IMG/VR virus record: IMGVR_UViG_3300043411_000447
Coordinates: 1 to 46,213 of that record
Reading direction: 5' to 3' (one strand)
Source of the DNA: a virus
DNA: 46,213 nt
The notes beneath the pieces are model-generated. The model had not been told where the DNA came from and made no database searches. It saw nothing but the letters and a program-made list of their open reading frames with translations. Of the stretch, positions 288-46,213 are shown piece after piece; position 1 is the stretch's first letter; each line of letters starts with the position of its first letter. Both the position numbers and the translations under genes were made by a program.

Positions 288-316
288 TTGCATCTAAGGT
301 AAGCTCGTGGTATAAT
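288..316 (+). promoter_or_regulatory. Candidate rightward sigma-70 promoter
   Basis: TTGCAT (288-293), a 17-bp spacer and a perfect TATAAT (311-316). The same -35/-10 pair with the same spacing occurs on the other strand at 43264-43292, which supports a real promoter class in this phage. Transcription would start near 323 and give a leader of about 245 nt before the first firm gene at 569. Confidence 0.65.
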
Positions 317-13292: not shown

Positions 13293-13321
13293 TTGATTTT
13301 TAGAGTGATTTATGCTATACT
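13293..13321 (+). promoter_or_regulatory. Extended -10 sigma-70 promoter before the fibre gene
   Basis: TTGATT (13293-13298), a 17-bp spacer ending in TGC, and TATACT (13316-13321), making an extended -10 promoter. It lies in the 53-bp gap just before the fibre gene at 13346, one of the few true gaps in the rightward unit. This would give the fibre and downstream tail genes extra or separately timed transcription. Confidence 0.7.
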
Positions 13322-28414: not shown

Positions 28415-29962
28415 TTATGCTCCATCGTCATCAGAGTACACAATTGGTCTCCCTGTCTTAACATCAAATTCTTTGTAATGAATTTTGAAATACCCTTTAG
28501 AGTCCCATAAATTCTCGATAGAACGCTGAAGGTTCATTTTATCAATGTCTGGCATTGTCTTTGATGCATTCAAATGAGCATTTAACGTCAATCTCTTCGT
28601 TGTGCGATTAAAGCCTCCCACTTCTAACAATGGAAATTTCTCGCCGTCATAGAAATTATATTTATCTGATAAGATTCTTCTAATCATCTTAAACCCTTCG
28701 TCGTCATGAATACCGTCGACATTATAGAACTTAGATTCCTCAACTCCTCTGTAGCCATGGTCAACTAATTCAGTTTTGATGTGAGTAGCCATAAGCTTGT
28801 AATCCCTAACTAATTTAGGACTTAAGAATTGAGAGACTGCGGTAGAGTCGCTGAAGTTATAGCAGCAATCTTTAACTGCATCAAGCCAATTTGTTTCTAC
28901 TAAATCAGGGAAATAATGACGATCCTCATCAGTAGGCTTAGTGCAGATCCGCTTAATATCATGCAGTAAATTGTAACCTAAGTGATACGGGTTAAAATTG
29001 ACCCCCATTTCCGAATCATTGTGGCGGACTACACATGTATGGCTATGTAGAATCTCCATCATCCGGCCTTCGTCGAGCCAGCCTTCCTCAAATAAGTCAT
29101 GGGTCAATTGGTGGTGCCAAAATGAAGCCCAGCCTTCGTTGAGCATTTTAGTCATCATTTGGGGATAGAAATATCGCCCAATTTCAGCATAGCTTTTAAT
29201 GACATTCCGTGCCGACCGGGGAAGTGTCGGGGAATGTTCAGCTATGAAATCCAAAATGCTCAGAGACTCCGGGGCTACCTGGCCCGATTTCTGGGTCATA
29301 ACAACATCTCTGCCCAGGCCTAAACTATCAATCGAAATTGAAAACTCTTTATTCAAAGCCTCTCTAATCTTTTGAGAGTTAGCTTCTACTTCTTTCGATG
29401 TATGCACAGACTGATTTTTAAATGAAATCCCATAGAATTGTAGGGGGAGCAGTTGCTCGAAGAGATCCGTGATGCGATACTTCTTCTCTAAAGCTTCTTC
29501 TTCGTATATAGATAAGTTAGTTCGGAACTGCTTAAATAATGAAATAGCATTCTCTGCTTTGGTGTACTGCTTAAACAGATGATTGTTTTTAAAGAAAGAT
29601 GAATGTCCTACAGCTGCATGTGCTAGCACTAGAGCCTGCATAGCTGTGGAGTTTGTATTCAGTATATAGCATAGTGATGGACTTGTGTTAAAGATGACTT
29701 CGTAAGCAACTCCCATCTGGTTTCCTTGGTATTGCTTTAACATCTTTTCGTATTCCACCCCAATAGTCCAATGATCGACCCACACTGGAAAACTGCCGGC
29801 ATGGATATGTAGCATATCTTCCCAAGTGACAATTTCAAACAAAGGGTCGTAGAAGTCTATAGAGTATTTTTTAACAGCTATATTTCGAATCACATCCCAC
29901 ATGTCTAGGATATCTTTCGATGACCATTCAACTTTTGAAAAAGGGTTTGCTCGTTTTTTCAT
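28415..29962 (-). CDS. spoVR: SpoVR family protein
   Basis: A 515-aa full-length SpoVR/YcgB homologue (E. coli YcgB is about 510 aa). Family hallmarks are LAHAAVGHSSFFKNN (113-127), EGWASFWHH (276-284), NPYHLGYNLLHDI and a C-terminal LTLNAHLN region. The family is named for B. subtilis spore-cortex formation; in Proteobacteria it is usually encoded with prkA and yeaH and induced in starvation. Its biochemical role is unsettled. The ATG follows the YeaH stop codon directly, with GGGAG upstream, so all three genes are co-translated. Confidence 0.93.
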   Translation of the reverse strand: MKKRANPFSKVEWSSKDILDMWDVIRNIAVKKYSIDFYDPLFEIVTWEDMLHIHAGSFPVWVDHWTIGVEYEKMLKQYQGNQMGVAYEVIFNTSPSLCYILNTNSTAMQALVLAHAAVGHSSFFKNNHLFKQYTKAENAISLFKQFRTNLSIYEEEALEKKYRITDLFEQLLPLQFYGISFKNQSVHTSKEVEANSQKIREALNKEFSISIDSLGLGRDVVMTQKSGQVAPESLSILDFIAEHSPTLPRSARNVIKSYAEIGRYFYPQMMTKMLNEGWASFWHHQLTHDLFEEGWLDEGRMMEILHSHTCVVRHNDSEMGVNFNPYHLGYNLLHDIKRICTKPTDEDRHYFPDLVETNWLDAVKDCCYNFSDSTAVSQFLSPKLVRDYKLMATHIKTELVDHGYRGVEESKFYNVDGIHDDEGFKMIRRILSDKYNFYDGEKFPLLEVGGFNRTTKRLTLNAHLNASKTMPDIDKMNLQRSIENLWDSKGYFKIHYKEFDVKTGRPIVYSDDDGA

Positions 29963-31168
29963 TTAACTCTCCCTTCTCTTTTTGTATGTATGTGTGAATA
30001 TCTGTAAAATATCTGTGGAAATTTGACTATCTGACAAAGTCTCTATACGATCGCCACTGTAAGTTACCACGCTGATCTTTGGAGACTTGCCCATTGAAGA
30101 TTTTTCTAACCTTTCTGAGTACTGTCCTGTCGATCCTCCACTGTACGGGCTGTACCCACGGATAAATTCTAAATAACTTAAATGCCTAATCCTTGGCAAT
30201 AGATCTAATTTAAGTACTTTAAAAGCTTCTTCGACATCCCGGTCCATAATCACTTCGCCGTCGGAAGTCTGTGCGATATAAATGTTCCAAGATGGCTCTT
30301 TATATTTCGCTTCAATGCAACGTCTGATGGCATGGTAAGCCGGGGCCATCATAGTACCGCCACTTAGCGTCGTATTAAAAAACTGATCGTAATCCATTTC
30401 ATAAGCTTCGGAAGCGTGTTGAATAAAATTGACTTCCACTATCTTGTACATCTGAGACACAAATAAATGCAAAAGCATAAAGTAGATTTTAGAAGCGTAT
30501 CTCATTTTATCCGTAACAGATCCAGACACGTCCATAATACAGAAAATTACTGCTCTAGATTCAGCCATCTCGATAGGCTGTCTTAAGTTATATCTTAAAT
30601 CTTCTTCAATAATATAAGGGGCTTTAGTGCCGCGCTGCTCAGCGGCAACTTTCCTTGCAATAGCATTTTCCATTGTCTTTAATAGATTTAAAGAGGTAGG
30701 TGATCCGGACGTTGTATAACCAGCTCTTTGGAATTCTGTTGAGATTAATGTGAAAAATGTTTTTTCTAAGTTAGGCAATTCAAGGCCACTAAAAAGAATA
30801 GATAGAAATTCTTCTTGTGTCAAGATCATATCTAAGACGCTTTCTGAATCGCCTTCGCCCGAACCAGATCCTTGACCTCTTCCACTGCCTTTACCTGGAG
30901 GCATTGGAATCTTATCACCTTTATTGAATTGTTTATTCCCATGAATAATGAACTTATCATCACCATGAGAATCGTAAACTGGAGGATTCGGCACGTCATC
31001 GCTATTTATGATGATATGTTTTTTACCAGATAGACCATCAATACCAGAGCCTCTTACGATATCAGAGGCTTGGCGTTTTAGGCGGTCGCGGTGGCGGTCA
31101 ATCATCTTTTGACGACTGACCGCTTGACCTGACTTATGTGAACGGCTTTTATCTACGATACCAGTCAT
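29963..31168 (-). CDS. yeaH: YeaH family protein (DUF444, vWA-like)
   Basis: A 401-aa member of the DUF444 family (E. coli YeaH is about 427 aa). Residues about 85-110 are a Gly/Ser/Lys linker, as in the bacterial proteins. A vWA-like domain starts at VIFCIMDVSGSV; DVSGS (213-217) is a MIDAS metal-binding motif. SGGT and WNIYIAQTSDG follow. The C-terminal part after residue 340 differs from the E. coli protein. It lies between prkA and spoVR, the usual bacterial order. A GGGG ribosome-binding site precedes the ATG. Confidence 0.92.
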   Translation of the reverse strand: MTGIVDKSRSHKSGQAVSRQKMIDRHRDRLKRQASDIVRGSGIDGLSGKKHIIINSDDVPNPPVYDSHGDDKFIIHGNKQFNKGDKIPMPPGKGSGRGQGSGSGEGDSESVLDMILTQEEFLSILFSGLELPNLEKTFFTLISTEFQRAGYTTSGSPTSLNLLKTMENAIARKVAAEQRGTKAPYIIEEDLRYNLRQPIEMAESRAVIFCIMDVSGSVTDKMRYASKIYFMLLHLFVSQMYKIVEVNFIQHASEAYEMDYDQFFNTTLSGGTMMAPAYHAIRRCIEAKYKEPSWNIYIAQTSDGEVIMDRDVEEAFKVLKLDLLPRIRHLSYLEFIRGYSPYSGGSTGQYSERLEKSSMGKSPKISVVTYSGDRIETLSDSQISTDILQIFTHTYKKRRES

Positions 31169-31192
31169 GAGATCCCCTTCATCTCGTTATGG

Positions 31193-33103
31193 TTAATTTC
31201 GACTTACTTTAGCGTACCAGTCTGTCAAAATGGCTACTTGTCTTTCAGTATAGCCCAATTTTTTCATTCTGTCAACAAAGTGTCGGTGTCGTTTTTTGCT
31301 ATCATCGTCACCATGAGTAGATGTGGCGATAACTGGTAGCATATCTTCAATATTTCCAAGAATCTTTGCTTCGATGACATCCTTGATTTTTTGGTAAGCT
31401 GTCCATCTTGGATTTTTACCACCATTTTTAGCTTGATATCTAAATGCAAATGTGACGATCTCATTTCGGAAATCTTTCTTATTTGAAATTCCTGCTGGTT
31501 TTTCTACTTCCAACAAGAACTCATCTAACTCCTTCTGAGACATCATTAAACTTGAGGTTGGATCTTTAATCGTATCTTCTCTCAAGAATGCATCTGCAAA
31601 TAAAACATATCGATCAAAAAGATTTTGACCATATTCTTCATATGAGTCGATATAAGCCTTACGTAGCTCTTTATCTAAGAAGGCCTTATAATCTTCTAAG
31701 ACTAATTGATGAGCTGCTAAATAAGCATTTTCAACTGCTTTATCTAAGTTCTCTTTGCGGATCCTGTCTTTTAAAAGAATCAGCAAATGGACTGGATTTG
31801 CAGCAGTTTCTTCAATATCATAGTTGAATGTTTCTGCGAGCAGTTTAAATGCAAAACGAGTTGAGACTCCAAAAAATCCTTCTTCTGGCAAGCTTTCCTT
31901 AGCTTCATTCTTCAGCTCGTAAACTCCTTTAACATCGCTAATCTTATGCTTTAAATTTTCGCCATTGTAAACTTCCATCTTACGATTTTCTTTAATGTGA
32001 TTTGAAGGCTTTAATCTTGTCATCACAGAAAACTTGGCCAGTGTTTCCAGAGTCTTCGGAGCAACTGGAGAAGATGAAAGCGAACTATCATTTAACATTT
32101 TCTGATAGATACGACTTTCTTCGCTATATCGTAATGTATATGGAATCTTTACAATAAATATACGGTCAATAAGCGCTTCATTGCGTTTGTCATTGCGGAA
32201 TTTAGTCCACTCTGATTCATTCGAATGCGCTATAATCAGCCCGTCAAAAGGAATCGCCCCAATCGGCTGGGTTCCGTTATACATACCGGATTGAGTCGCT
32301 TCAAGAAGGGGATTTAGCGACTTGATTGGGGCTTTGAACATTTCTGCGAATTCCATCAAGCCTCGGTTGCCTTTACACAGACCACCACTGAAGGAGTACG
32401 CATTTGGGTCACTAGCATCTAATAAGCCAATCTGAGAGATATTAGCTTTGCCGACTAATGATGATATATCTTGATTATTCTCATCACCTGGCTCAACATG
32501 GCTAATTGCGACTTGATTGACTTCACTAGGAAACAATTTAACAACTTTAAGTTGAGAGATGTCACCATCAAGATCTCTTACCTTCTGAGCAAGCCATGGA
32601 GATGGTAAGACAGAAAGATATCGTGAGGGAATACCTAATTCTTCTGAATCGGATGTTGTAAATAGAGATAAAGGATTATCAAGAACTGGAGATCCTTCGA
32701 TTGCAAAGAATGGACGTTGCTCCATTAAATGCTTTAATAATCTTACAATCGTTGACTTACTCGATCCGACCGGACCTAAAAGATACAGAATTTGCTTCTT
32801 TTCTTCTAATCCTTGAGCCGCATGCTTAACGAAAGATATTAAATCTTTGATAGGCATTTCTAAGCCGTAAATGTCTTTAAATGTCTCGAATACTTGGATA
32901 GTTTCATTTGAGAATATTCTTGCTAATTTCTCATCGTTCTTTGTATCGACTAAAGTTGGCGCGCCAATAGCATCAAGTAGTCTCTCTGATGCTGTAGCAT
33001 ACGCTAATTTATCAGTCTTGCAAAGTCCTAAGTAGTCAGCAAGACTCATCGTCTCCCTCACTCTAGAAACTAGCTTATCACCTGCTTTCTTTAAATTTAG
33101 CAT
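31193..33103 (-). CDS. prkA: PrkA family serine protein kinase / AAA+ protein
   Basis: A 636-aa full-length PrkA/YeaG homologue (E. coli YeaG is about 644 aa). The N-terminal AAA+ part has HAAQGLEEKKQILYLLGPVG with Walker A GPVGSSKST (110-118), and EPGDENNQDIS. MEFAEMFKAPIK and LIIAHSNESEW follow. The C-terminal region keeps SYEEYGQNLFDRYV and EKPAGISNKKDFRNEI. In bacteria it acts as a kinase and possibly a Lon-like AAA+ protein in stress and nitrogen starvation. A GGGGG ribosome-binding site indicates strong translation. Confidence 0.94.
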   Translation of the reverse strand: MLNLKKAGDKLVSRVRETMSLADYLGLCKTDKLAYATASERLLDAIGAPTLVDTKNDEKLARIFSNETIQVFETFKDIYGLEMPIKDLISFVKHAAQGLEEKKQILYLLGPVGSSKSTIVRLLKHLMEQRPFFAIEGSPVLDNPLSLFTTSDSEELGIPSRYLSVLPSPWLAQKVRDLDGDISQLKVVKLFPSEVNQVAISHVEPGDENNQDISSLVGKANISQIGLLDASDPNAYSFSGGLCKGNRGLMEFAEMFKAPIKSLNPLLEATQSGMYNGTQPIGAIPFDGLIIAHSNESEWTKFRNDKRNEALIDRIFIVKIPYTLRYSEESRIYQKMLNDSSLSSSPVAPKTLETLAKFSVMTRLKPSNHIKENRKMEVYNGENLKHKISDVKGVYELKNEAKESLPEEGFFGVSTRFAFKLLAETFNYDIEETAANPVHLLILLKDRIRKENLDKAVENAYLAAHQLVLEDYKAFLDKELRKAYIDSYEEYGQNLFDRYVLFADAFLREDTIKDPTSSLMMSQKELDEFLLEVEKPAGISNKKDFRNEIVTFAFRYQAKNGGKNPRWTAYQKIKDVIEAKILGNIEDMLPVIATSTHGDDDSKKRHRHFVDRMKKLGYTERQVAILTDWYAKVSRN

Positions 33104-35654: not shown

Positions 35655-37271
35655 CTAATATTCCTCATTATCTGAGACTTTAGTATACAAAGACAGCTTC
35701 TCAGCAATCTCAAGTTTACCTGTATGGGCTTGGTATGTCAATGTATCGGCCTGGCCTACGATCCCACTAACTCTGTTCTTAAGCACTCGTATTAAAAGTT
35801 TATTAGGATCGTTGCCCTGCTGATCCCTTTCTAAGGCCAGGACAACGTCAGAAAGCTGCTCTAATGAGCCGCTGCCTCTAAGGTCTGTAAGGCTGACTTG
35901 ATCCCCCTCATTGTATTCCTTGCCCCGTTTAACGTGGACAGCAGCTAAGACACCGACTCCAGTTCGTGCCACAATGGAACGAAGTGCTGTCATGATTCTA
36001 TCAATATCTTTCCGCTCACCTTCACGGCTCGATTCTAGCCCTGATACTAAAATTGAAATGTGGTCTAAAAATATAAAATCGACTCTATAAGCTTTGACTA
36101 GGTATTCAACAATAACTTCCAATCTCTCTAAACTAAGTGATCCAAAATGTTCGTAAAATGTCATTCGATCTTTAAACTTATTTAAAGAAGCTTGAATTTT
36201 GCTGTCCGATATGATCGATGGGTTCTCTGCAAACTGATAAGCAGGTTTGTCATTATCTAGTGCAATGAAACTTTGGACAGTAAAAAGCATGTTTTCTTCT
36301 AAGAAGATATTAGCAATTCTCAAATCTCCGGAATTATCTAAGAGGTACTTTCCTAGCTGTTTCATAAACGTTGTTTTACCGATCCCCGATCCGGCCGTGA
36401 TTAATGTCAAACGCCCTTTATTGATTCCCCTGATCATTTCATCAAGCTGTGGGTATGGTAGTGGCAGACCTCTAGGAGCTGCGGCCTTTATTTGGTCTAA
36501 TGTAATATCATTAATAGTGACGATTCCGTCCGGCCTATATTCCCTCGCTGTAAACGGCAACCGTAGTAATTCAGGGATACGATCAGCTAACAGAAGCTCA
36601 TTTAAGTCTTTTAAAGCGGGGGTGGCAATCTTAACCCTGCCTGGCGGAAATAGCTCTGCGCACTGATTCACAGCAATTTGACCTGCTTCGTCATTATCGA
36701 AAGCCAATATAATTGTTTCAAATCCTAATAAAAAGTCTAGATTACGACGCATATCCGCCTCTGCTCCAGGAGCTCCGGTATTAACTGATACTACCGGGTA
36801 TTTTCCCTGAGTGACTTCTGCATATGACATGGCATCAATAGCGCCTTCCGTTACTATAATCATTTTATTATACTTACCAGACCACAGATGCTGCCCAAAT
36901 AGGCCACATTCTTTAGCTCTGCTGGAATTAATCCAAGCGAAGGTTTTATCGGGTCTTCTAATTTTTTGGGAGATAACTTCTCCCGAGACTCTATGGTGGT
37001 AATTTTCAATTTGAACTGGATTCTTAAAATCATCCAATCCCTGCATATACCCAAATAGTTCACAGGTTTCTTGGGAAATCTTTCTCTGAGTGAGCTGCGC
37101 AGTAGTTCCGACTAACAGTCCAGAATCCGCAGGTATGATCGTAGCTTCGCGTTTACGTTTAACTTTGTTAGATTCACATCCAGGAGTGAAGCAATATTCA
37201 GATCCGTTATCAAAGACTTTTTTGTTGTCTTTTGACCCGCAAGAATCACAGCTTTTTGTCTGTACGGACAT
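35655..37271 (-). CDS. Bifunctional primase-helicase (T7 gp4-like)
   Basis: A 538-aa protein. The N-terminal zinc-binding domain has C8, C11, C27 and C32. A TOPRIM primase domain follows (VTEGAIDAMS with E142, and AFDNDEAG with DND 192-194). The C-terminal RecA-like hexameric helicase has Walker A GSGIGKT (294-300), a Walker B-type FIFLDHISILV, and DLRGSGSLEQLSD. It unwinds DNA and makes primers for the family A polymerase. GGGG precedes the ATG, and the start overlaps the small zinc-ribbon gene by 26 bp. Confidence 0.94.
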   Translation of the reverse strand: MSVQTKSCDSCGSKDNKKVFDNGSEYCFTPGCESNKVKRKREATIIPADSGLLVGTTAQLTQRKISQETCELFGYMQGLDDFKNPVQIENYHHRVSGEVISQKIRRPDKTFAWINSSRAKECGLFGQHLWSGKYNKMIIVTEGAIDAMSYAEVTQGKYPVVSVNTGAPGAEADMRRNLDFLLGFETIILAFDNDEAGQIAVNQCAELFPPGRVKIATPALKDLNELLLADRIPELLRLPFTAREYRPDGIVTINDITLDQIKAAAPRGLPLPYPQLDEMIRGINKGRLTLITAGSGIGKTTFMKQLGKYLLDNSGDLRIANIFLEENMLFTVQSFIALDNDKPAYQFAENPSIISDSKIQASLNKFKDRMTFYEHFGSLSLERLEVIVEYLVKAYRVDFIFLDHISILVSGLESSREGERKDIDRIMTALRSIVARTGVGVLAAVHVKRGKEYNEGDQVSLTDLRGSGSLEQLSDVVLALERDQQGNDPNKLLIRVLKNRVSGIVGQADTLTYQAHTGKLEIAEKLSLYTKVSDNEEY

Positions 37272-37956: not shown

Positions 37957-37998
37957 AGTATAGACCTTAAATCGTTAGCTGCATTAAAGGAACCTTAA
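37957..37998 (-). promoter_or_regulatory. CtrA-box promoter upstream of the replication genes
   Basis: On the minus strand TTAA-N7-TTAA (37984-37998) is followed after exactly 21 nt by TATACT (37957-37962 on the plus strand). The inner TTAA then lies at about -36 to -33, overlapping the -35 position. This is how the alphaproteobacterial response regulator CtrA activates promoters. The identical geometry is found at 39285-39326 and 42639-42680. Binding by a host CtrA is inference. Confidence 0.7.
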
Positions 37999-38714
37999 CT
38001 TGGTAATTTAATCCAAAATATGTCATACATGCCGGTAAGTATATACAAAAGCTTACGTTTCTCGACGTTTGTTCTTGCTAGTTCAATATCCGCATCGAAC
38101 ATTGCTTTTATGACTCCATCGACTCTAGTGCTAAAAAATAATAATTCCTGCGCTCTTGACGGCTTTACTGTGCCATCAACTAGTTTAGCTACTAAATTAA
38201 AAACTTGAACTAAATCTCTTCCAGTCACTACGGTATCTGTCTCGAAGCGTATAGCGAAGTCTTTATGAGCATCGAACATAATCACATTAGACTCTTGATT
38301 AAAGCCTAGTAACTCGTACGACTCTCTGACTTCTATATTCATATCATCAAGTTCTTCATCTGAACATTTAACACTCTCACCACAATGGGCTCTGTGGAAT
38401 AATACCACGCCTCCGGCATATACGTGAACTTCGTCCGAGCTCGCAGCTATAATCGCAGCTGCAGAAGCTGCTTCTGAATAGACTTCGGAGACGACAAATG
38501 AAAACTGACTCGCTACCGCTAGAAAATCTTCCATAGCTGACAGCTGCCCGCCTCTACTGTCTGCTATTATAGTTAGAACTTCATGCTTGTTTGAAGATTT
38601 CATCTGAGATATGAGTGGAGCCATAGTCTCGTCAGTAATTTCTTCTGGAAGGATCACTGTCAGAGCCCAGGCGGGGCTTATGACAAGTATAAACATAAAT
38701 ACTAGTGCTCTCAT
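37995..38714 (-). CDS. Secreted ClpP-like serine protease
   Basis: A 239-aa protein with a signal peptide (residues 1-17, ending AWA). A ClpP/crotonase-type fold follows: LTIIADSRGGQLSAM (48-61, oxyanion-type GG), SEAASAAAII with probable nucleophile S84, and VVLFHRAH with probable H107. A candidate Asp lies near 162. The layout resembles ClpP and SppA peptidases, but with export to the periplasm. It may degrade envelope proteins or counter host defences. A GGGGG ribosome-binding site precedes the start. Its stop codon falls inside the CtrA-type box downstream. Confidence 0.72.
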   Translation of the reverse strand: MRALVFMFILVISPAWALTVILPEEITDETMAPLISQMKSSNKHEVLTIIADSRGGQLSAMEDFLAVASQFSFVVSEVYSEAASAAAIIAASSDEVHVYAGGVVLFHRAHCGESVKCSDEELDDMNIEVRESYELLGFNQESNVIMFDAHKDFAIRFETDTVVTGRDLVQVFNLVAKLVDGTVKPSRAQELLFFSTRVDGVIKAMFDADIELARTNVEKRKLLYILTGMYDIFWIKLPS

Positions 38715-38715
38715 A

Positions 38716-38850
38716 TTATCCCCCGAAATCTAGGCCAGTCTCAGTCTCGATATCGTCTAATCTATCTTCGAATGAGTGATTGTAATCACTGGCAAAATCT
38801 TCAACTTCTAGCACTCTTTCCTTTACTGCGTCCCATTGTAATCTACTCAT
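38716..38850 (-). CDS. 44-aa acidic protein
   Basis: A 44-aa ORF with an excellent GGGGG ribosome-binding site and an ATGA overlap with the upstream gene; it ends one base before the protease gene. The product is acidic and helical (VLEVEDFASDYNHSFEDRLDD). Such small acidic early phage proteins often bind host enzymes; here the function is unknown. Confidence 0.65.
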   Translation of the reverse strand: MSRLQWDAVKERVLEVEDFASDYNHSFEDRLDDIETETGLDFGG

Positions 38851-38972
38851 TTGACACCCCCTTTAGATTTCATATAAGCAAATACCACCGTACCCCAAAC
38901 GCCGACCATTGTCAATAGCAATGAACCATACAAATCAAAATTTTCGCATTGAATGTATATGAGCCAATCCAT
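38847..38972 (-). CDS. 41-aa membrane protein
   Basis: A 41-aa ORF with a GAGGGG ribosome-binding site and one hydrophobic helix (about residues 14-33) followed by KSKGG. It is linked by ATGA to the next gene. Function is unknown. Confidence 0.6.
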   Translation of the reverse strand: MDWLIYIQCENFDLYGSLLLTMVGVWGTVVFAYMKSKGGVK

Positions 38973-38978
38973 ATCCCC

Positions 38979-39098
38979 TCACTTATTAGCTAACCCAACG
39001 GCTAATGCTATAAATATCAGTAATCCTATTAATCCAGCAGCATGGAGGCAGATAGCTGCTAATGAAAATCCTGCTGCTACTTGAAAGAGATCACTCAT
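38979..39098 (-). CDS. 39-aa membrane protein
   Basis: A 39-aa ORF with a strong AAGGAG ribosome-binding site. Most of its length is an Ala/Leu/Ile/Gly-rich membrane segment ending in NK. It sits between two other small genes, with spacings of 6 and 10 bases. Function is unknown. Confidence 0.6.
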   Translation of the reverse strand: MSDLFQVAAGFSLAAICLHAAGLIGLLIFIALAVGLANK

Positions 39099-39108
39099 GA
39101 CACGCTCC

Positions 39109-39252
39109 TTATTCGTATTTACCAGTTTGTAATTCATCAGCTACTAATAAAGCCACAAATTTATCGATCAAATCTTTTTCTTCTTGACTTTGATAATTAA
39201 CTTTCGTGTAAGCTATTTGACTTGAATTTGTATTTCGATACCAGATAGTCAT
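39109..39252 (-). CDS. 47-aa soluble protein, first gene after a CtrA-box promoter
   Basis: A 47-aa ORF whose ATG follows GGAG and lies about 33 bp downstream of the TATACT box at 39285-39290. The product has a WYRNTNSSQIAYTKV start and an acidic-basic helix. It heads the transcript for the small membrane proteins and the ClpP-like protease. Function is unknown. Confidence 0.62.
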   Translation of the reverse strand: MTIWYRNTNSSQIAYTKVNYQSQEEKDLIDKFVALLVADELQTGKYE

Positions 39253-39284
39253 GGCACATACTCCTATTCAATCTTTATAACTTA

Positions 39285-39326
39285 AGTATAATCGACTTTC
39301 AGGAGCATGTATTAAGGCAGGCTTAA
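39285..39326 (-). promoter_or_regulatory. CtrA-box promoter
   Basis: Read on the minus strand: TTAAGCCTGCCTTAA (39312-39326), 21 nt, then TATACT (39285-39290). The box is both a TTAA-N7-TTAA site and a perfect inverted repeat (TTAAG-N5-CTTAA). It is the best-formed of the five boxes. It drives the small-gene cluster that ends with the ClpP-like protease. Confidence 0.75.
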
Positions 39327-39433
39327 ATTTTAAAAATATTTTTAATTAAACGGAAAGCCCCATGCACAGCTACAGGGGCCCCGATTATTACAAGAACGAT
39401 GAAAGTGTATGTAGTGATTTCTGCTAATGTCAT
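39323..39433 (-). CDS. 36-aa membrane protein
   Basis: A 36-aa ORF with GGAAA upstream, one membrane helix (about residues 9-26) and a short basic tail. Its stop codon is formed by the CtrA-type box downstream. Function is unknown. Confidence 0.55.
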   Translation of the reverse strand: MTLAEITTYTFIVLVIIGAPVAVHGAFRLIKNIFKI

Positions 39434-39437
39434 AGCA

Positions 39438-39581
39438 TTATTTCCTTTCTTTTTTGCTGGATTTTTTTCTAATTCTCTTTCTTTCATTACGCTCCTGTTC
39501 AATGCCTACTTTGTCAGTTACTAATATGACTGTGAATATCATAGCTATGCAAAAAATAACAAATGTAATCGCTGCTGTCAT
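39438..39581 (-). CDS. 47-aa membrane protein with basic tail
   Basis: A 47-aa ORF with a GAGGTG ribosome-binding site. A hydrophobic helix (residues 3-22) is followed by a very basic, charged tail (ERKRIRKKSSKKERK). The topology would place the tail in the cytoplasm on membrane or nucleic-acid surfaces. It follows the HslV-like gene in the same operon. Confidence 0.6.
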   Translation of the reverse strand: MTAAITFVIFCIAMIFTVILVTDKVGIEQERNERKRIRKKSSKKERK

Positions 39582-39592
39582 ACATCACCTCG

Positions 39593-40195
39593 TTAATTGT
39601 GAAGAATGTCTACATTAGAATCGCATCCAGGGCTTACTTCAGAGGCTGCCTGTAAGGCCATGGTAAGCTTTTGTTCTGGGGTCAAGTCTTGTGCTGCTTT
39701 TTCAAGGGCTAATAATGCGCCCCATGCAAGACTTCCTCCGCATCCTGCAGCGAACGGCGTGGATATCGGACACATCGCAATATAATCGCTGGACACATCT
39801 AACTCATAAAGATCACTTCCGATACCTACTAGGATGGTTGCCGATAAATCAGTGCCCTCAGTATGCTTGGCAAGCCTGAACTCGCCTTTATTAATCCATC
39901 CAGTTTTTCTTAAATGTTTGATATATGCAGGCAAGAATTTCGTATTGGCGTACATATACGTATCTTCTTGCTTATTGAACTTAGGCGGAACAAATAAGTC
40001 TGTAGCTGTATCACATAGCACTGAAGTTCCTGTACCCGCAAATAGGATACCATGTCGGAAGGTGATCTTTGATCTAGGAGAGATTTGTGCCTGCCCTATA
40101 TGCCATGAAATCCTGCGATCTCCTGCAAAATAAAGTTTTCCTTTGTGCTTCAGCACAGCTAGACACGTATGAGATTTGAGTCGATGTTTAGTCAT
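39593..40195 (-). CDS. HslV/proteasome-like Ntn-hydrolase peptidase
   Basis: A 200-aa protein aligning with HslV. Thr10 in SHTCLAVLKHKGKLYFAGD would be the N-terminal nucleophile after removal of a 9-residue propeptide. D26 is then position 17 of the mature chain, and K43 is close to the expected Lys33. FAGTGT and AAGCGGSLAWGALLALE match the HslV FAGG and GSGG loops, with Cys for Ser. No HslU ATPase gene is nearby. The start at 40195 is chosen because GAGG precedes it; an ATG at 40207 is upstream of that GAGG. Confidence 0.78.
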   Translation of the reverse strand: MTKHRLKSHTCLAVLKHKGKLYFAGDRRISWHIGQAQISPRSKITFRHGILFAGTGTSVLCDTATDLFVPPKFNKQEDTYMYANTKFLPAYIKHLRKTGWINKGEFRLAKHTEGTDLSATILVGIGSDLYELDVSSDYIAMCPISTPFAAGCGGSLAWGALLALEKAAQDLTPEQKLTMALQAASEVSPGCDSNVDILHN

Positions 40196-40209
40196 AAGAA
40201 GCCTCATTT

Positions 40210-40256
40210 AGTTAATAATATACGTGTATTGTACACTTAACGCAGTCTTAATGCAA
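40210..40256 (-). promoter_or_regulatory. CtrA-type box overlapping a sigma-70 promoter
   Basis: TTAAGACTGCGTTAA lies at 40237-40251 (minus strand). At the usual 21-nt distance only TTAACT (40210-40215) is found. However, a good alternative promoter, TTGCAT-17-TACAAT (40251-40256 and 40228-40233), has the box filling its spacer. A protein bound here would block that promoter, so this copy may act as an operator. It controls the HslV-like gene. Confidence 0.62.
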
Positions 40257-40454
40257 TACTGGTCTAACAAATTCTGGGTGGCATTCAAGTAATTTGAAAG
40301 CGCCTTCTAGTGTCACATTTAAATTGAAGGAAGCTCCCAACTCTCTCGAGTCTCCGGTAGACACTTGAGATATTAAAGCATATTGACCATTTTCTTTTTG
40401 TGTGATATAGAACTGGGCCGGATGTTCTTTATTGCCAAACATTATTGGTCTCAT
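40248..40454 (-). CDS. Unknown 68-aa protein
   Basis: A 68-aa protein starting MRPIMFGNKEHPAQFYI at an ATG with GAGG 6 nt upstream; an in-frame GTG at 40466 has no such site. It contains a GQYALISQVSTGDSREL region and ends in HPEFVRPVLH. Its stop codon lies inside the CtrA-type box. No family is recognised. Confidence 0.6.
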   Translation of the reverse strand: MRPIMFGNKEHPAQFYITQKENGQYALISQVSTGDSRELGASFNLNVTLEGAFKLLECHPEFVRPVLH

Positions 40455-40466
40455 AGGACACCTCAC

Positions 40467-40613
40467 TTAAAAAATCCAAGTAGTATAAGACAGCAGTCTA
40501 TATAATTCAACATTTGCGTCGCTAAACGTAGCGTGAGATGATATGATATCTTCATTTTCGTTTAGTATGACATACAAGTTGTCGCTGTCTTTTCGTATTG
40601 TCAATATATTCAT
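40467..40613 (-). CDS. 48-aa protein downstream of a CtrA-type box
   Basis: A 48-aa ORF with AAGGGG upstream. The product has two short beta-like segments (NILTIRKDSDNLYVILNENEDI) and an aromatic C-terminus. It is the first gene after the box at 40662-40676. Function is unknown. Confidence 0.6.
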   Translation of the reverse strand: MNILTIRKDSDNLYVILNENEDIISSHATFSDANVELYRLLSYTTWIF

Positions 40614-40632
40614 ATAAAGCCCCTTATAGTTT

Positions 40633-40676
40633 AGTACACTTATCAGTATACACTATGACTATTAAGATTTACTTAA
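40633..40676 (-). promoter_or_regulatory. CtrA-type box with nearby -10 elements
   Basis: TTAAG-TAAAT-CTTAA (40662-40676), a perfect inverted repeat and TTAA-N7-TTAA. On the minus strand it is followed by TATACT after 11 nt (40645-40650) and by TGTACT after 23 nt (40633-40638). Neither matches the 21-nt rule, so the exact promoter is uncertain, but the box itself is clear. Confidence 0.55.
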
Positions 40677-40817
40677 ACCGAATAAATAATTAACAGCGTC
40701 CACATACGACGCAAACCAGTATTGCGCATCGGCTTCAGTATAAACCCATTGCCCATCACTCGGCTTTAAGTCATAAATAGCAGACGGAGGCATCCATCTA
40801 TCGTTTAATCTGTTCAT
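40662..40817 (-). CDS. Unknown 51-aa protein
   Basis: A 51-aa ORF with a perfect AGGAGG ribosome-binding site. The product is Trp/Tyr-rich (SDGQWVYTEADAQYWFASYVD), resembling the short GYF/DUF-like stretches in phage proteins. Its stop codon is part of the TTAA-N7-TTAA box. Function is unknown. Confidence 0.65.
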   Translation of the reverse strand: MNRLNDRWMPPSAIYDLKPSDGQWVYTEADAQYWFASYVDAVNYLFGLSKS

Positions 40818-40825
40818 GAGTCCTC

Positions 40826-41017
40826 CTAATGCATTATCGGTGGTTTAGTAGGAAAATCATCGTCTGATTGCATCTTAAAAGTTCTGATTAATGCGTTGCT
40901 TATGTTGTTTAAAATGCTTTCTACAAGCTCTTCTTTAAGCCTTCTAATAACTATATGCAGAAATATTACATATGCAATTGTAATGCTTAAAGCGACACTT
41001 AAAATTACTACTGTCAT
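40826..41017 (-). CDS. 63-aa membrane-anchored protein
   Basis: A 63-aa protein with an AGGGG ribosome-binding site. One N-terminal membrane helix (residues 2-22) is followed by a basic-acidic helix and a short PTKPPIMH tail. I start at 41017; an upstream TTG at 41050 lies in the previous gene. Function is unknown. Confidence 0.6.
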   Translation of the reverse strand: MTVVILSVALSITIAYVIFLHIVIRRLKEELVESILNNISNALIRTFKMQSDDDFPTKPPIMH

Positions 41018-41018
41018 A

Positions 41019-41117
41019 TCATTCCCCTTTTGTAAAATATTCAAGTCCAATAGCGACTAAAGATAACGCTACCATGGTCAGAAAATAAGTTATAATCAAA
41101 GCTGTGACGATGCTCAT
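41019..41117 (-). CDS. 32-aa membrane protein
   Basis: A 32-aa ORF with an AGGAG ribosome-binding site; nearly all of it is one hydrophobic helix, ending FTKGE. Its TGA overlaps the leader of the next gene. It is too short for family recognition. Confidence 0.5.
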   Translation of the reverse strand: MSIVTALIITYFLTMVALSLVAIGLEYFTKGE

Positions 41118-41120
41118 GAC

Positions 41121-41438
41121 TTACTCCTCGTTTTTAGGATTACCCCAAACGCCTGTGTAAGAAGTTATCAGTTTTCCGCCTGGACCGACGACAGCCACTA
41201 AGTCATCAATTGACGTTGCTTTAAAGTTATCTAAAAGAGCTTTCTTTCGCAATTCGTCAGGGTTAGTTATCAATCCCAGATATTCACTGTTAAATCCTCT
41301 CCCCTGATCTACCTTCTGGATAGCCGTTCCGTCTACAAGCTCCGTAAGTGTAACTAGCCTAGTATGTAGATTATCTCCTCTTTCAATGAATGTTATTTTA
41401 AACACGTGTTGGCCGTTGTTTTCTTTAGTCACTCTCAT
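41121..41438 (-). CDS. Unknown 105-aa protein
   Basis: A 105-aa soluble protein with a GAGGTG ribosome-binding site and an ATGA overlap with the upstream coiled-coil gene. It has a beta-rich N-terminal half (HVFKITFIERGDNLHTRLVTLTEL) and a mixed C-terminal half. Early small-gene region; no family is recognised. Confidence 0.62.
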   Translation of the reverse strand: MRVTKENNGQHVFKITFIERGDNLHTRLVTLTELVDGTAIQKVDQGRGFNSEYLGLITNPDELRKKALLDNFKATSIDDLVAVVGPGGKLITSYTGVWGNPKNEE

Positions 41439-41620
41439 AAGTCACCTCGTAGTTTTTTAAGCTCTGATATACGGACATCTAACTCGTGCAACGAATCTAC
41501 TATGGAAGACTGCCAGCTCTCTATAATCTCTACTCTACGTCTTAACTGTTCCGTGTCTATAACTCTGTCTTCTAGAGCCTTAAGTCGTTTTACTAACTCA
41601 CCAACTGCTTGACAAGTCAT
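41435..41620 (-). CDS. 61-aa coiled-coil protein
   Basis: A 61-aa protein that is helical throughout, with heptad-like leucines (VKRLKALEDRV, RRVEIIESW, LDVRISELKKL). A strong AGGAG ribosome-binding site precedes the ATG. It probably forms a dimeric coiled coil. Function is unknown. Confidence 0.62.
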   Translation of the reverse strand: MTCQAVGELVKRLKALEDRVIDTEQLRRRVEIIESWQSSIVDSLHELDVRISELKKLRGDL

Positions 41621-41632
41621 GATTTAACTCCT

Positions 41633-41809
41633 CTATAAATGACGTTTCAAGACATTATTGCCTAGGTGATTCTTTAGCCACGTCTCTGCTTCAAGTTTGG
41701 TCCGAAATCTTTCGATTATTTCGAATGCGTCTCCTCCAAATCCGTTATCGTATACTACCGCAAATCTTCCATTAGATAATTCCTCAACACTAAAATTTTT
41801 TGCTTGCAT
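41633..41809 (-). CDS. Unknown 58-aa protein
   Basis: A 58-aa ORF with GGAG upstream. The pattern NGRFAVVYDNG, FEIIERFRTKLEAETWLKNH looks like a small beta-beta-alpha domain similar to the short repeat units used in phage and sporulation proteins. It is a well-placed operon member. Function is unknown. Confidence 0.62.
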   Translation of the reverse strand: MQAKNFSVEELSNGRFAVVYDNGFGGDAFEIIERFRTKLEAETWLKNHLGNNVLKRHL

Positions 41810-41820
41810 ACACTATACTC

Positions 41821-42110
41821 CTATAAATTGCCTTTCACTGATTCTCTTAATTCAACTAAAAGCTCAGCAGCAAACTCACTTTCTTCTTCGCCGTACAGTA
41901 GAATTGAGATACTTACTCGTCCTCCAGGCGTTATACCGACTCTATGCCAATTATTTTCTATTCCGTAACTCTTTGTCAGCCTTATTAATTCTGATTTCAT
42001 TTTGTTCTTAAATTCATCGAAATTAGTTATGTGATGCGGAGAGAGAGTATAATTTCAACTGTTGATCTGTCTAATATAGTAATTTCATGCTGATTTGCTA
42101 TAAGTTTCAT
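41821..42110 (-). pseudogene. Two fragments of one small gene, split by a (CT)4 frameshift
   Basis: A 27-aa ORF with a good GAGG ribosome-binding site (42027-42110) and a 59-aa ORF without one (41821-42000) lie in different frames. Removing one CT unit from the run near 42040-42048 joins them into a single 95-aa protein reading MKLIANQH to RESVKGNL without a stop. I take them as one gene broken by, or controlled by, dinucleotide slippage. Assembly error is also possible. No family is recognised. Confidence 0.55.
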
Positions 42111-42126
42111 AAGTTACCTCATTAAG

Positions 42127-42213
42127 TTATTTAAAATCTTCAGTCACTTCTTTAATAACTGCATAGATCGCTAATGTTGCCATGATCCACATCAGACCCT
42201 CAACAATATTCAT
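42127..42213 (-). CDS. 28-aa small hydrophobic protein
   Basis: A 28-aa ORF with GGGGAG upstream. A hydrophobic centre (LMWIMATLAIYAVI) and an acidic tail suggest a membrane microprotein. It starts one base after the upstream gene's stop. Very short, so this rests on the ribosome-binding site and spacing. Confidence 0.45.
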   Translation of the reverse strand: MNIVEGLMWIMATLAIYAVIKEVTEDFK

Positions 42214-42214
42214 T

Positions 42215-42376
42215 TTAGCTCCCCTTTTTCATTAAAGCGTCATATTTCTTTTTAAGCTTCCCATACTTCTCTTTTAGTTCACTCAATTCGTCTCTAACTG
42301 TTTTGTACTTTCCTTTACGTAATCCGGCAGCAGTCTCTAAATCTACCCATACTCGTTCAATGTGTGTTAATTTCAT
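42215..42376 (-). CDS. 53-aa basic coiled-coil protein
   Basis: A 53-aa ORF starting in an ATGA overlap with the preceding gene. The product is basic and helical (VRDELSELKEKYGKLKKKYDAL), likely a coiled coil. Function is unknown. Confidence 0.58.
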   Translation of the reverse strand: MKLTHIERVWVDLETAAGLRKGKYKTVRDELSELKEKYGKLKKKYDALMKKGS

Positions 42377-42606
42377 AAAGCACCTCTATTCCGCATTTCT
42401 TGTACAGCCTGCTCGGCAAACTCTGCATCAACATCAATAGCATCATACCACTGAGATAATTTAGCGTCAATAATATTGTTTTTAACGATTCTAATTTGTA
42501 ACAATAGTTCTTCATGGCCTAGATCTAAAGCTCTATGCTCTAATCTAGTCAGAAGCTCTAATGTGCTGTTTAGAAAGTTTTCTGTTACTAAGATTTCTCG
42601 TGCCAT
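42373..42606 (-). CDS. 77-aa helical protein, first gene after a CtrA-box promoter
   Basis: A 77-aa helical protein (NFLNSTLELLTRLEHRALDLGHEELLLQIRIVKNNI) with an AAGGGG ribosome-binding site. It is directly downstream of the promoter at 42639-42680 and heads the following small genes. Function is unknown. Confidence 0.62.
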   Translation of the reverse strand: MAREILVTENFLNSTLELLTRLEHRALDLGHEELLLQIRIVKNNIIDAKLSQWYDAIDVDAEFAEQAVQEMRNRGAL

Positions 42607-42638
42607 ATTGAATCCCCTTTTATATTTGATTCAATTAC

Positions 42639-42680
42639 AGTATAGCAGAGCTTTTTGAGATTACATTAAGGCAGTGTTAA
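42639..42680 (-). promoter_or_regulatory. CtrA-box promoter with extended -10
   Basis: On the minus strand, TTAACACTGCCTTAA (42666-42680), 21 nt, then TATACT (42639-42644) preceded by TGC, an extended -10. It shares the ACTGCCTTAAT core with the other boxes. It drives the gene at 42373-42606 and those after it. Confidence 0.75.
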
Positions 42681-43263: not shown

Positions 43264-43292
43264 ATTATACCTTCAATGTATTCAGAATGCAA
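43264..43292 (-). promoter_or_regulatory. Sigma-70 promoter
   Basis: On the minus strand: TTGCAT (43287-43292), a 17-bp spacer and perfect TATAAT (43264-43269). It is the same -35/-10 pair as at 288-316. It overlaps the stop codon of the upstream gene and drives the structured leader and the gene at 42852-43154. Confidence 0.72.
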
Positions 43293-43680
43293 GGTCAGGA
43301 TCATCAGACTTAAATTCTTCAAATAATCCCTTTTCTCTTATAAATTTTGATGCGTAATAATATCTATTCCAGTAGAGTGTTGCATATTCTCTTTCCGTCT
43401 CGTACATATCTTTATAAGTATCCTCATCGCCACTCAGCTCTAAGGGTAGCTGACCATACCCATCAAGAATAATATTTAATGCGGACTCTTTCATCTCTTG
43501 AGATAGGATATTGAGGCTTAAATAACTAATTACATGTTTTTCATAGTCAAATGAGCACGAGTATGTAGAATTAAGTTTAAATTCCTTGGTTATACATACA
43601 CATACACCTTTTGCAACTGAATGATTTCTTTTTACTAATATTTTAATCATGCTGACCAAGCCAGGGTTGTATACTCTCAT
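43282..43680 (-). CDS. Unknown 132-aa protein
   Basis: A 132-aa protein with GGGGTG before the ATG and an ATGA overlap with the upstream gene. It has a GVCVCITKEFKL strand near residue 25 and an acidic, Tyr-rich C-terminal half. It is an early-operon member; no family is recognised. Confidence 0.6.
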   Translation of the reverse strand: MRVYNPGLVSMIKILVKRNHSVAKGVCVCITKEFKLNSTYSCSFDYEKHVISYLSLNILSQEMKESALNIILDGYGQLPLELSGDEDTYKDMYETEREYATLYWNRYYYASKFIREKGLFEEFKSDDPDLAF

Positions 43681-43946
43681 TCTTCACCCCTCATCACATG
43701 ATGAATGTCAACTTCAGCAATACGCAAAGCTTCTCGGCTGTCTGTATAAGCTTCAATAATAATAAAATTACCATAATCGTAAACATTATTTGTTATTAAA
43801 GGGTACACAAGGTATTGTATGTCACTGTTAAGTTTATTAAGGCTAGTAAGTCTTTCTCTCATTTTCGTTGCTAATTTCTCAATTTCGTATTCGTCCATCG
43901 AGTCAACTTGCATTTTGTATACTAAAGTATATTTTATTACTTTCAT
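43677..43946 (-). CDS. Unknown 89-aa protein
   Basis: An 89-aa protein with an alpha-beta pattern (IKYTLVYKMQVDSMDEYEIEKL, then NFIIIEAYTDSREAL). The layout is that of a small ferredoxin-like fold. GGA precedes the ATG, which overlaps the previous stop as ATGA. Function is unknown. Confidence 0.6.
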   Translation of the reverse strand: MKVIKYTLVYKMQVDSMDEYEIEKLATKMRERLTSLNKLNSDIQYLVYPLITNNVYDYGNFIIIEAYTDSREALRIAEVDIHHVMRGEE

Positions 43947-44053
43947 TGTAATATTCCTAAAATTATACTAACAGCTAACAGCGCCCACGGAGTTAGTATC
44001 AACGCGGACCAGCTCGCTACAATAAAAATGTTTAAAATATCCAAATCTTTCAT
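43943..44053 (-). CDS. 36-aa membrane protein
   Basis: A 36-aa ORF, mostly one or two hydrophobic stretches (ILNIFIVASWSALILTPWALLAVSIILGIL). Its TGA overlaps the next ATG. It starts 3 bases after the upstream gene. Function is unknown. Confidence 0.5.
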   Translation of the reverse strand: MKDLDILNIFIVASWSALILTPWALLAVSIILGILQ

Positions 44054-44056
44054 AAT

Positions 44057-44203
44057 CTAAGATACACCTAATATGATTTGAACAGCTGCGGCAGTCATGA
44101 TTCCGACTATTACAAAGCATGCCGCTGTAACCCCCACGATAAAAATAGACCTTATTAAATCAAGTCTGTCTTTTTCAATCCTGCTCATTTCGTCATTGTT
44201 CAT
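44057..44203 (-). CDS. 48-aa single-pass membrane protein
   Basis: A 48-aa ORF with a strong GGGAGG ribosome-binding site. A charged N-terminus (NNDEMSRIEKDRLDLIR) is followed by a membrane helix to the end. It resembles small phage membrane proteins that modify the host envelope, but function is unknown. Confidence 0.6.
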   Translation of the reverse strand: MNNDEMSRIEKDRLDLIRSIFIVGVTAACFVIVGIMTAAAVQIILGVS

Positions 44204-44226
44204 CTAACCTCCCTACCACTATTAAT

Positions 44227-44577
44227 TTAAGCTGACATAACTAACACTAATCCAACAGCAATGGTTAATATAAAAAGCACGTTGGTTATTAAGTGGAAAT
44301 TCTCGCAATCTTTCCTGGCAATATCATCGCTAAGCCTTTTATTATTTAATCTTCGAAGATTCTCCAGCCCCATTTGTAAATCGTCTGTATATTCCTTTTC
44401 CCTGTCTAATTTGTATTGTAGAGTTTTATTTACTTGCTTCAACTCATCTAAATCTTTTTTGTACTTATCTAAAACAATTACGTACTGCTCCTGGCGACAG
44501 CTCCTTTCATTCTTCAAGTGCTTAACTTCATGTTCAAGATCTTTAATGATCACGTCAGCGTGTGATGATTTACTCAT
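44227..44577 (-). CDS. 116-aa coiled-coil protein with C-terminal membrane anchor
   Basis: A 116-aa protein. Residues 8-85 are a charged coiled coil (DLEHEVKHLKNE, VNKTLQYKLDREKEY), and residues 96-114 are a hydrophobic tail anchor. GGGAG precedes the ATG, which overlaps the upstream gene by 8 bp. A tail-anchored coiled coil could tether factors to the inner membrane. Function is unknown. Confidence 0.65.
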   Translation of the reverse strand: MSKSSHADVIIKDLEHEVKHLKNERSCRQEQYVIVLDKYKKDLDELKQVNKTLQYKLDREKEYTDDLQMGLENLRRLNNKRLSDDIARKDCENFHLITNVLFILTIAVGLVLVMSA

Positions 44578-44800
44578 ATTTAGTCTCCCTTTCTCGTATA
44601 CGTTTAGCTCGGTGCAATAGAAACTCTTCTCTTAAATTTTTGGAATAAAGGAAATCCCATGCTGCTGATAGATCCGCATAAAGAATTGCCCTCTCACACT
44701 TCAAGTCTTTCCTCTCTGCCTCTAATTTCCTAATAGTTTCGCGATCATAATGTTCTCTCAGAGCCACTTGATCTAAGAAATGCCTTTCAATCATACTCAT
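44570..44800 (-). CDS. 76-aa helical protein
   Basis: A 76-aa charged helical protein (YDRETIRKLEAERKDLKCER, LREEFLLHRAKRIRERETK) with AGGAG before the first of two ATGs. It is the second gene of the early unit, just after the endonuclease VII-like gene. Function is unknown. Confidence 0.6.
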   Translation of the reverse strand: MSMIERHFLDQVALREHYDRETIRKLEAERKDLKCERAILYADLSAAWDFLYSKNLREEFLLHRAKRIRERETKYE

Positions 44801-44835
44801 TTTAGTACTCCTAATTCAGGCAACTTAAACGGAAC

Positions 44836-45294
44836 TTATCCCGATTTAGTTTCATTCATAATAACATACTTCACAATATTATTCAATAATCCCGACTCCT
44901 TTTTCACCGCGCTTAATATAATCGCACACCTACTGCACACTAGGCCTCTCACATTCCCTTTGTCATCTTTATCTACGCTCAGTCTCTTCCTATACGCATT
45001 AGGCTCAGGTCTGCTACACACAGCACAGAGGCCACCTAGCTGCTGGTTGAGTCTGTCAAAGACATCACTGGTAATATTATGATTAGACTTAAGATCCCTT
45101 TCCCACACTTTGTCCTTATGAATATTATTCCATTCTCTCATGTATTCACGTGTCTTTCTTTTATTAGCAGCTAATATTGATCTTTTCTCGTGGCCACGGC
45201 AGACTCTGCATACAGCATGATAGCCATAGCCTCTCTTGTCAAATCTTTCAATAGCCTTCACCTGACCACACTTGCTGCACTTACGTTCTGACAT
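44836..45294 (-). CDS. Endonuclease VII-like zinc protein with degraded active site
   Basis: A 152-aa protein, first gene after a consensus promoter. Residues 6-32 form one zinc ribbon (CSKC, CRVC). Residues 75-140 follow the T4 endonuclease VII fold: NITSDVFDRL, CAVC, VDKDDKGNVRGLVCSRC. The active-site pattern DHxH...N is here D108-K109-D110-D111 and A124, so most catalytic residues are missing. It is thus more likely a DNA-binding protein or regulator than an active resolvase. AGGAG precedes the ATG at 45294. Confidence 0.7.
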   Translation of the reverse strand: MSERKCSKCGQVKAIERFDKRGYGYHAVCRVCRGHEKRSILAANKRKTREYMREWNNIHKDKVWERDLKSNHNITSDVFDRLNQQLGGLCAVCSRPEPNAYRKRLSVDKDDKGNVRGLVCSRCAIILSAVKKESGLLNNIVKYVIMNETKSG

Positions 45295-45322
45295 AGCTAG
45301 ACTCCTATCTGAATATACAGGA

Positions 45323-45351
45323 ATTATATGCCACAATTAGCTGTTTGTCAA
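45323..45351 (-). promoter_or_regulatory. Perfect consensus sigma-70 early promoter
   Basis: On the minus strand: TTGACA (45346-45351), a 17-bp spacer and TATAAT (45323-45328), matching the sigma-70 consensus at all twelve positions. It lies just upstream of the first leftward gene and should be the strong immediate-early promoter of the phage. Confidence 0.88.
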
Positions 45352-45474
45352 CTCTAAGTTTGACTAGTCTTTAGGGTAGTTATATTGTAAGCTTTACATT
45401 GAAAGCTTTCATTGAGACCATTGTGTCTCTAGTGTCTCTAGTGTCCCCTGTTACTACCATTGCAGCTTAAGCTC

Positions 45475-45486
45475 TTACTGCAGTAA
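45475..45486. repeat. 12-bp palindrome TTACTGCAGTAA
   Basis: A perfect 12-bp palindrome with partly symmetric flanks (AGCT before, AGCagCT after), within the repeat-rich part of the junction region. It may be an operator for a dimeric regulator or part of an origin structure. Confidence 0.4.
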
Positions 45487-45707
45487 AGCAGCTATAGTGA
45501 CCACTGTTACTACATCCTATTACAACAACAGCTAAACAGTAGCTGCCTTAGTCTGACTCGAGATGATAGTAGATACAGGGGCGACAGTGGCTACAGGGAC
45601 GAGGTTAGCTGTTTTGATTATTAACCTGCTTTGCAGGATGTGTCTTAGTATCTTATAGTTGTTCGTAAAACAATCTCGACCACTAAAAGCTGCTGGTAAT
45701 TGGATTA

Positions 45708-45722
45708 TTAAGCTAGCTTTAA
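45708..45722. promoter_or_regulatory. CtrA-type box in the junction region
   Basis: TTAAGCTAGCTTTAA is an exact TTAA-N7-TTAA site. No TATACT lies 21 nt away on either strand, so unlike the leftward boxes it is not an obvious promoter. It may act in replication control or long-range regulation. Confidence 0.45.
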
Positions 45723-45949
45723 GGATAGCAGATGCGTTTAAACGGCCATAGAAGCTCATGGTGCAATCTTTATGGTGCAGGTAATAGGACAGTAGCGACC
45801 CCATAGACAATCGTGGCTGAGAAGGCCTCAGATTGGCTCGGGTGCAATCGGGTCACGATGCAGGTATGCAGCCAGGTGGTCAGTGGTGGCGCTGTACAAG
45901 CCCCCCATCCCCACCCCATTCAGCCATTCCGGACCAAGGCGGTCGATCC

Positions 45950-45964
45950 TTAAGCCTATTTTAA
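45950..45964. promoter_or_regulatory. CtrA-type box in the junction region
   Basis: TTAAGCCTATTTTAA is an exact TTAA-N7-TTAA site, with another TTAA half-site 19 bp further right (45983-45986). It lies in the G+C-rich part of the non-coding region and has no -10 at the usual distance. Confidence 0.45.
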
Positions 45965-46053
45965 GCTTTCTTTCAGCCAATTTTAAGGAAGTTATGTCGC
46001 TGCTGGGCTAGGGTGAGAGCCTGCACGTCAGCTCTTTATGTCCCAGTGGGGGT

Positions 46054-46079
46054 GGGCCTTTCCGGGAAAAAATAGGCCC
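46054..46079. other. Strong G+C-rich hairpin next to the junction
   Basis: GGGCCT (46054-46059) pairs with AGGCCC (46074-46079), with a nested TTCC-GGAA in the loop. It is followed by G-runs up to the assembly junction. It could be a terminator for transcripts crossing the junction, a packaging-site element or an assembly-difficult structure that explains why the circle was opened here. Confidence 0.45.
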
Positions 46080-46086
46080 GGGGGTG

Positions 46087-46213
46087 GGGGGTTTTTGGGC
46101 AGCAGTGGTGGAAAGGGTGGGTACCCTTATCCCCTATACAATCAATATCTTACAGCATTTCAGAGTCCGCAAGCGTCCCGTGCAGCCCTGATTTTCAGAG
46201 TCCGCAAGCAGCC
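46087..46213. repeat. Terminal direct repeat, right copy (assembly overlap)
   Basis: Exact copy of bases 1-127. One copy should be removed to obtain the circular genome. Confidence 0.93.

Follow-up and report, generated by a model that had tools for sequence, protein, structure and literature searches.

The middle promoter Pm of phage Mu carries two 5-bp inverted repeats within a 16-bp element that is centred at -43.5 and that replaces the -35 element (PMC4390567). A second precedent is provided by CtrA. Mascolo et al. found that CtrA sites cluster at the promoters of several alphaproteobacterial phages, and that CtrA binds these phage sites, where it represses or activates (PMC9437464). Delta and phiCbK are CtrA phages that were tested by EMSA (PMC9437464). 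As this work is already published, CtrA control of phage genes is, of course, not a new idea. The consensus published for Hyphomonas is TTAA-N7-TTAAC (PMC7200025), and the 5' end of the Caulobacter CtrA site lies near -35 (PMC4287350). The Rhodobacter site also lies near -35.

Here, the starting point is a virus record of 46,213 bases, classed with the IMG/VR records; this whole stretch is called the window. Its GC content is 40%, and no tRNA genes were found in it. A rightward arm holds structural genes (terminase, portal, head closure) and a leftward arm holds replication genes (a T7-type primase/helicase, a family A polymerase, and exonucleases). A cassette of PrkA (YeaG), DUF444 (YeaH) and SpoVR genes, a bacterial set related to stress and sporulation, lies at 28415-33103 on the minus strand of this 46 kb phage and is common to a family of IMG/VR phages. 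The gene for the terminase large subunit has an in-frame TAA at 3751-3753 (plus strand), which falls in the linker that joins the ATPase part to the nuclease part; an ATG follows two codons on. The subunit is uninterrupted in the relatives G002, G004 and G005; in G001 roughly 400 bases break it at about the same place.

The preliminary description of this DNA reported five TTAA-N7-TTAA boxes at leftward promoters, three of them at an identical distance from TATACT. All five are there, each closely upstream of a leftward gene, and the distance of 21 nt is exact at three:

42666-42680, minus strand: box TTAACACTGCCTTAA, 21 nt from TATACT at 42644-42639, upstream of gene 42606-42373 and the small genes that follow
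40662-40676, minus strand: box TTAAGTAAATCTTAA, 11 nt from TATACT at 40650-40645, upstream of gene 40613-40467
40237-40251, minus strand: box TTAAGACTGCGTTAA, between a -35 TTGCAT and a -10 TACAAT, upstream of the HslV-like gene
39312-39326, minus strand: box TTAAGCCTGCCTTAA, a TTAAG/CTTAA palindrome, 21 nt from TATACT at 39290-39285
37984-37998, minus strand: box TTAAGGTTCCTTTAA, 21 nt from TATACT at 37962-37957

Downstream of the box at 39312 lie gene 39252-39109 and then a block ending with a ClpP-like gene. Downstream of the box at 37984 lie gene 37923-37618 and then the block of primase-helicase and DNA polymerase. The genes recognised near these boxes are:

39593-40207, minus strand: HslV/Ntn-peptidase-like protein (weak profile match)
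37995-38714, minus strand: ClpP-like protease-related protein (weak profile match)
35655-37271, minus strand: T7-type DNA primase/helicase, downstream of the promoter with the 37984 box

The five promoters are not, as might be supposed, all alike. Three share the 21-nt arrangement. At 40662 the distance of 11 nt is about one helical turn shorter, and at 40237 the box sits inside a sigma70-type promoter, TTGCAT-17-TACAAT at 40256-40228, 3 nt from its -10. That promoter is of the same type, with the same 17-bp spacing, as those at 288 and 43292. Thus, the distances from box to -10 run 21, 21, 21, 11 and 3 nt, and are not uniform.

The common core that had been proposed, TTAAGxCTGCCTTAA, holds in part. 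A G-type inverted repeat is preferred, with G as the inner base in 7 of the 10 half-sites (binomial P 0.0009 at f = 0.2) and C in 2; CTGC is found in only three of the five boxes. The palindromic part is then TTAAG-N5-CTTAA. The outer base is mostly T or A, and is C in one half-site of ten.

If the -10 is taken to occupy -12 to -7, each of the three boxes at 21 nt would span about -48 to -34 and be centred at about -41, a position taken from the -10 hexamer. Here, a palindromic box stands close to the -43 of a Mor/C-type site and would take the place of the -35. No TTGACA-like -35 could be read in the sequence of these three promoters at 16-18 nt; directly next to the box is a weak hexamer resembling ATGCA. 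The phage also has promoters that carry no box:

45323-45351, minus strand: consensus sigma70 TTGACA-17-TATAAT, a leftward early promoter
43264-43292, minus strand: sigma70-type TTGCAT-17-TATAAT, upstream of gene 43154-42852
288-316, plus strand: sigma70-type TTGCAT-17-TATAAT, a rightward early promoter
13293-13321, plus strand: sigma70-type TTGATT-17-TATACT in the structural gene arm, as read from the sequence

In this phage, as in G002 and L211 among its relatives, the sigma70-type promoters often have a -35 hexamer of the TTGCA type.

The whole window holds 13 TTAA-N7-TTAA sites against 2.76 expected, a number reached in 0 of 100 shuffles. Five are those at the leftward promoters; six lie in the rightward arm, all inside genes, and are probably incidental. 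The remaining two lie at the right end, most of which is non-coding:

45708-45722, unstranded: box TTAAGCTAGCTTTAA, without a -10 at 21 nt
45950-45964, unstranded: box TTAAGCCTATTTTAA, without a -10 at 21 nt

This right end (45352-46213), which is G/C-rich in places, probably belongs to a control region that lies between the arms.

That the boxes exceed chance at promoter positions was borne out by counting them in the 12 leftward gaps (966 nt). These hold four boxes against 0.09 expected, and none of 5000 shuffles reached four; this strict count omits the box at 40662-40676, which runs into the end of the preceding gene. In four of the five boxes a half-site is partly made up of a TAA stop codon, and a control was therefore needed in which the upstream stop was held fixed; its outcome was the same (0 of 5000). 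When spacings of 0 to 20 were compared among TTAA pairs at most 100 nt upstream of leftward starts, N7 was the most frequent (5), and N9 gave 4. The combination of box, 21 nt and TATACT occurs nowhere else in the window beyond 42666, 39312 and 37984, and 0 of 200,000 shuffles placed three boxes at one shared spacing to TATAMT. The three 21-nt spacers are themselves dissimilar (9, 5 and 5 of 21), which rules out recent duplication or copying of the promoters. The box, the distance and the -10 therefore appear to be the conserved parts.

The relatives do without this arrangement. Scans of viral contigs with YeaG and terminase gave a family of distant relatives, mostly at about 30-60% amino-acid identity. 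Helicase, YeaG and terminase scans of the viral contigs gave nothing closer than family level, and a head-closure scan of them gave no matches. Seven relatives (G001, G002, G004-G007 and G016) keep genes of the replication-side module without boxes at these promoters; their recognisable promoters for these genes have a TTG-type -35. None of G002 and G004-G007 has more than one non-coding box. G001 has 3 against 0.70 expected and G016 has 4 against 1.06, at other positions; this is a mild enrichment, mostly without matching promoter geometry. A gap without a called gene in G016 (L211:5280-5947), close to where its two gene arms meet, holds three TTAA-N7-TTAA sites, one of them with TATACT at 21 nt.

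A search of the genome and its relatives for a box with a -10 at 21 nt had been proposed as a check. In the phage it returned the three promoters; the relatives have no boxes at these promoters, and one site in G016 shows the pattern. The pattern of box, 21 nt and TATANT with the CTGC core gave single matches per contig only, as did the pattern with TATACT among the matches listed. The arrangement of box and promoter is private to this phage among the relatives compared.

We take the boxes to be the sites of one dimeric regulator of the leftward middle genes, with a small early protein of the phage or another host factor a likelier candidate than CtrA; we would give this reading a probability of roughly 0.5. 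The leftward early genes would be transcribed from the box-free sigma70-type promoters at 45351 and 43292. At 42666, 39312 and 37984, a dimer centred at about -41 would do the work of the absent -35, the role that Mor has at Mu Pm. At 40662 the dimer would sit one helical turn nearer the -10. At 40237 it would lie between the -35 and the -10, a position that points to repression or a change of timing rather than activation. The activation, the timing and the identity of the protein are all things that we infer. Activation is favoured over repression because the spacing is strict, being exactly 21 nt at three promoters; that these three have no -35, while other phage promoters have one of the TTG type, also speaks for an activator. 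The palindromic preference for a TTAAG half-site, which CtrA sites do not share, supports a regulator other than CtrA. Against such a regulator stand the eight core bases that are identical to those of CtrA, and that would then be a coincidence. The variation in box position also counts against this reading.

The family searches gave no candidate for this protein. Among the small proteins, neither Pfam nor PHROGs (the best 25 of 44 PHROG families) recognised a DNA-binding regulator. In six frames, the phage gave no match to Trans_reg_C (PF00486, the OmpR/PhoB-type response regulators; E up to 10) and none to the Mor/C family (PF08765). Thus, with neither an OmpR-type, a Mor-type nor another recognised regulator, the protein would belong to an unrecognised family or derive from the host. 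For two of the early proteins, single-sequence AlphaFold predictions gave no usable fold (pLDDT 35 and 49). If the protein is encoded by the phage, its likeliest home, as we infer, is the early block:

43282-45336, minus strand: box-free early gene block with an endonuclease VII-like protein and small unknown proteins

A sharper proposal is that an early phage protein of unrecognisable family binds TTAAG-N5-CTTAA and drives a middle regulon of five promoters, having replaced the TTG-type sigma70 promoters of the relatives. This we offer tentatively, at somewhat less than even odds.

The best surviving rival is that the boxes are CtrA sites, that the phage infects an alphaproteobacterium, and that the CtrA~P of the host times the middle genes. 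All five boxes have the perfect TTAA-N7-TTAA core, and they are intergenic and promoter-bound like those of the LPEG phages (PMC9437464); the CtrA core is indeed enriched at intergenic promoter positions. The 11 nt between the box at 40662 and its -10 agree with phiCbK, where by our own reading a -10-like hexamer lies 11-12 nt past the box. The other boxes depart from that distance, with three standing one helical turn upstream of the usual position, although the P1 site of Caulobacter podJ (of N6 spacing) lies at -49, near the inferred -48 here (PMC4287350). The extended TTAAC consensus is not followed. C is the inner base in 2 of 10 half-sites, against 10 of 12 in Delta and phiCbK (Fisher P 0.008), and the outer base in 1 of 10 against 9 of 12 (Fisher P 0.004), with a reference of only six sites. 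In ten bacterial genomes, genome-wide counts of TTAAC versus TTAAG mainly reflected background, and the alphaproteobacteria did not stand clearly apart from the others.

The relatives and the host bear on the same question. The preliminary description had named relatives that keep the genes and lack the boxes as evidence against its CtrA reading, and at family level this is what the relatives show; they are distant, so this leaves room for CtrA, and published LPEG sites are likewise gained and lost between close relatives. Terminase relatives come from alpha-, beta- and gammaproteobacterial and other genomes, of many classes; judged by its portal protein, the nearest isolate is a phage of the betaproteobacterium Alcaligenes. 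Depletion of GANTC or GATC gave no signal of the host; GANTC is at 1.06 of its expectation, a weak negative. Canonical CtrA fits the boxes poorly, and we consider it less likely than not, if the strongest of the rivals. Of the earlier claim that CtrA, or a phage protein of the same specificity, times the middle genes, what is well supported is one DNA-binding protein coordinating the middle gene block; the specificity is not, as flanks and spacing differ.

Less likely again is a repressor that binds the boxes as operators and keeps the middle genes silent at an early or a late stage of infection. For this speak the palindromic form of the site, the fact that every box overlaps or abuts the footprint of RNA polymerase, and the box at 40237, which lies between the -35 and the -10 of an otherwise good promoter. 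An exact 21 nt at three promoters without a -35 is, against this, what an activator requires, and the scans run on the phage showed no recognisable gene for a repressor, an integrase or lysogeny. Chance, in an AT-rich genome where TTAA is over-represented (z 5.8), where stop codons give part of a half-site and where the six boxes within late genes look incidental, is very improbable in view of the shuffles with fixed stop codons and those of the shared spacing.

A dimeric regulator other than CtrA would, if encoded by the phage, be a new activator of middle transcription in an uncultivated phage family, and a clean case of promoter rewiring, the relatives doing without the activator. If it were CtrA, this would be one more phage with CtrA control, here of replication-side genes, and an alphaproteobacterial host would be predicted.

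Among known systems, the geometry of the 21-nt promoters is closest to that of Mu Pm with Mor (PMC4390567). In both, the place of the sigma70 -35 at middle genes is taken by a dyad near -41 to -43, made up of two 5-bp inverted repeats with 5-6 bp between them. The phage differs from Mu in its TTAAG half-site, in having several such promoters rather than one, and in that a Mor-family protein was not detected. With the LPEG phages vB_BsubS-Delta, phiCbK and Cp1R7A-A1 (PMC9437464) it shares the concentration of TTAA-N7-TTAA at intergenic promoter positions. Its flanks are mostly G inside and T or A outside where theirs are C, and its distance to the -10 is mostly 21 nt rather than 11-12 nt. The boxes here lie at leftward middle promoters; theirs are found for the most part within terminal repeats or in a large gap. 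Like the middle promoters of T4 with MotA/AsiA (PMC6755090), the phage has an activator box that would replace the -35 at several promoters, those of replication genes included. The MotA box has its centre at about -30 (PMC6755090), whereas the one here, a palindrome, would have its centre at about -41.
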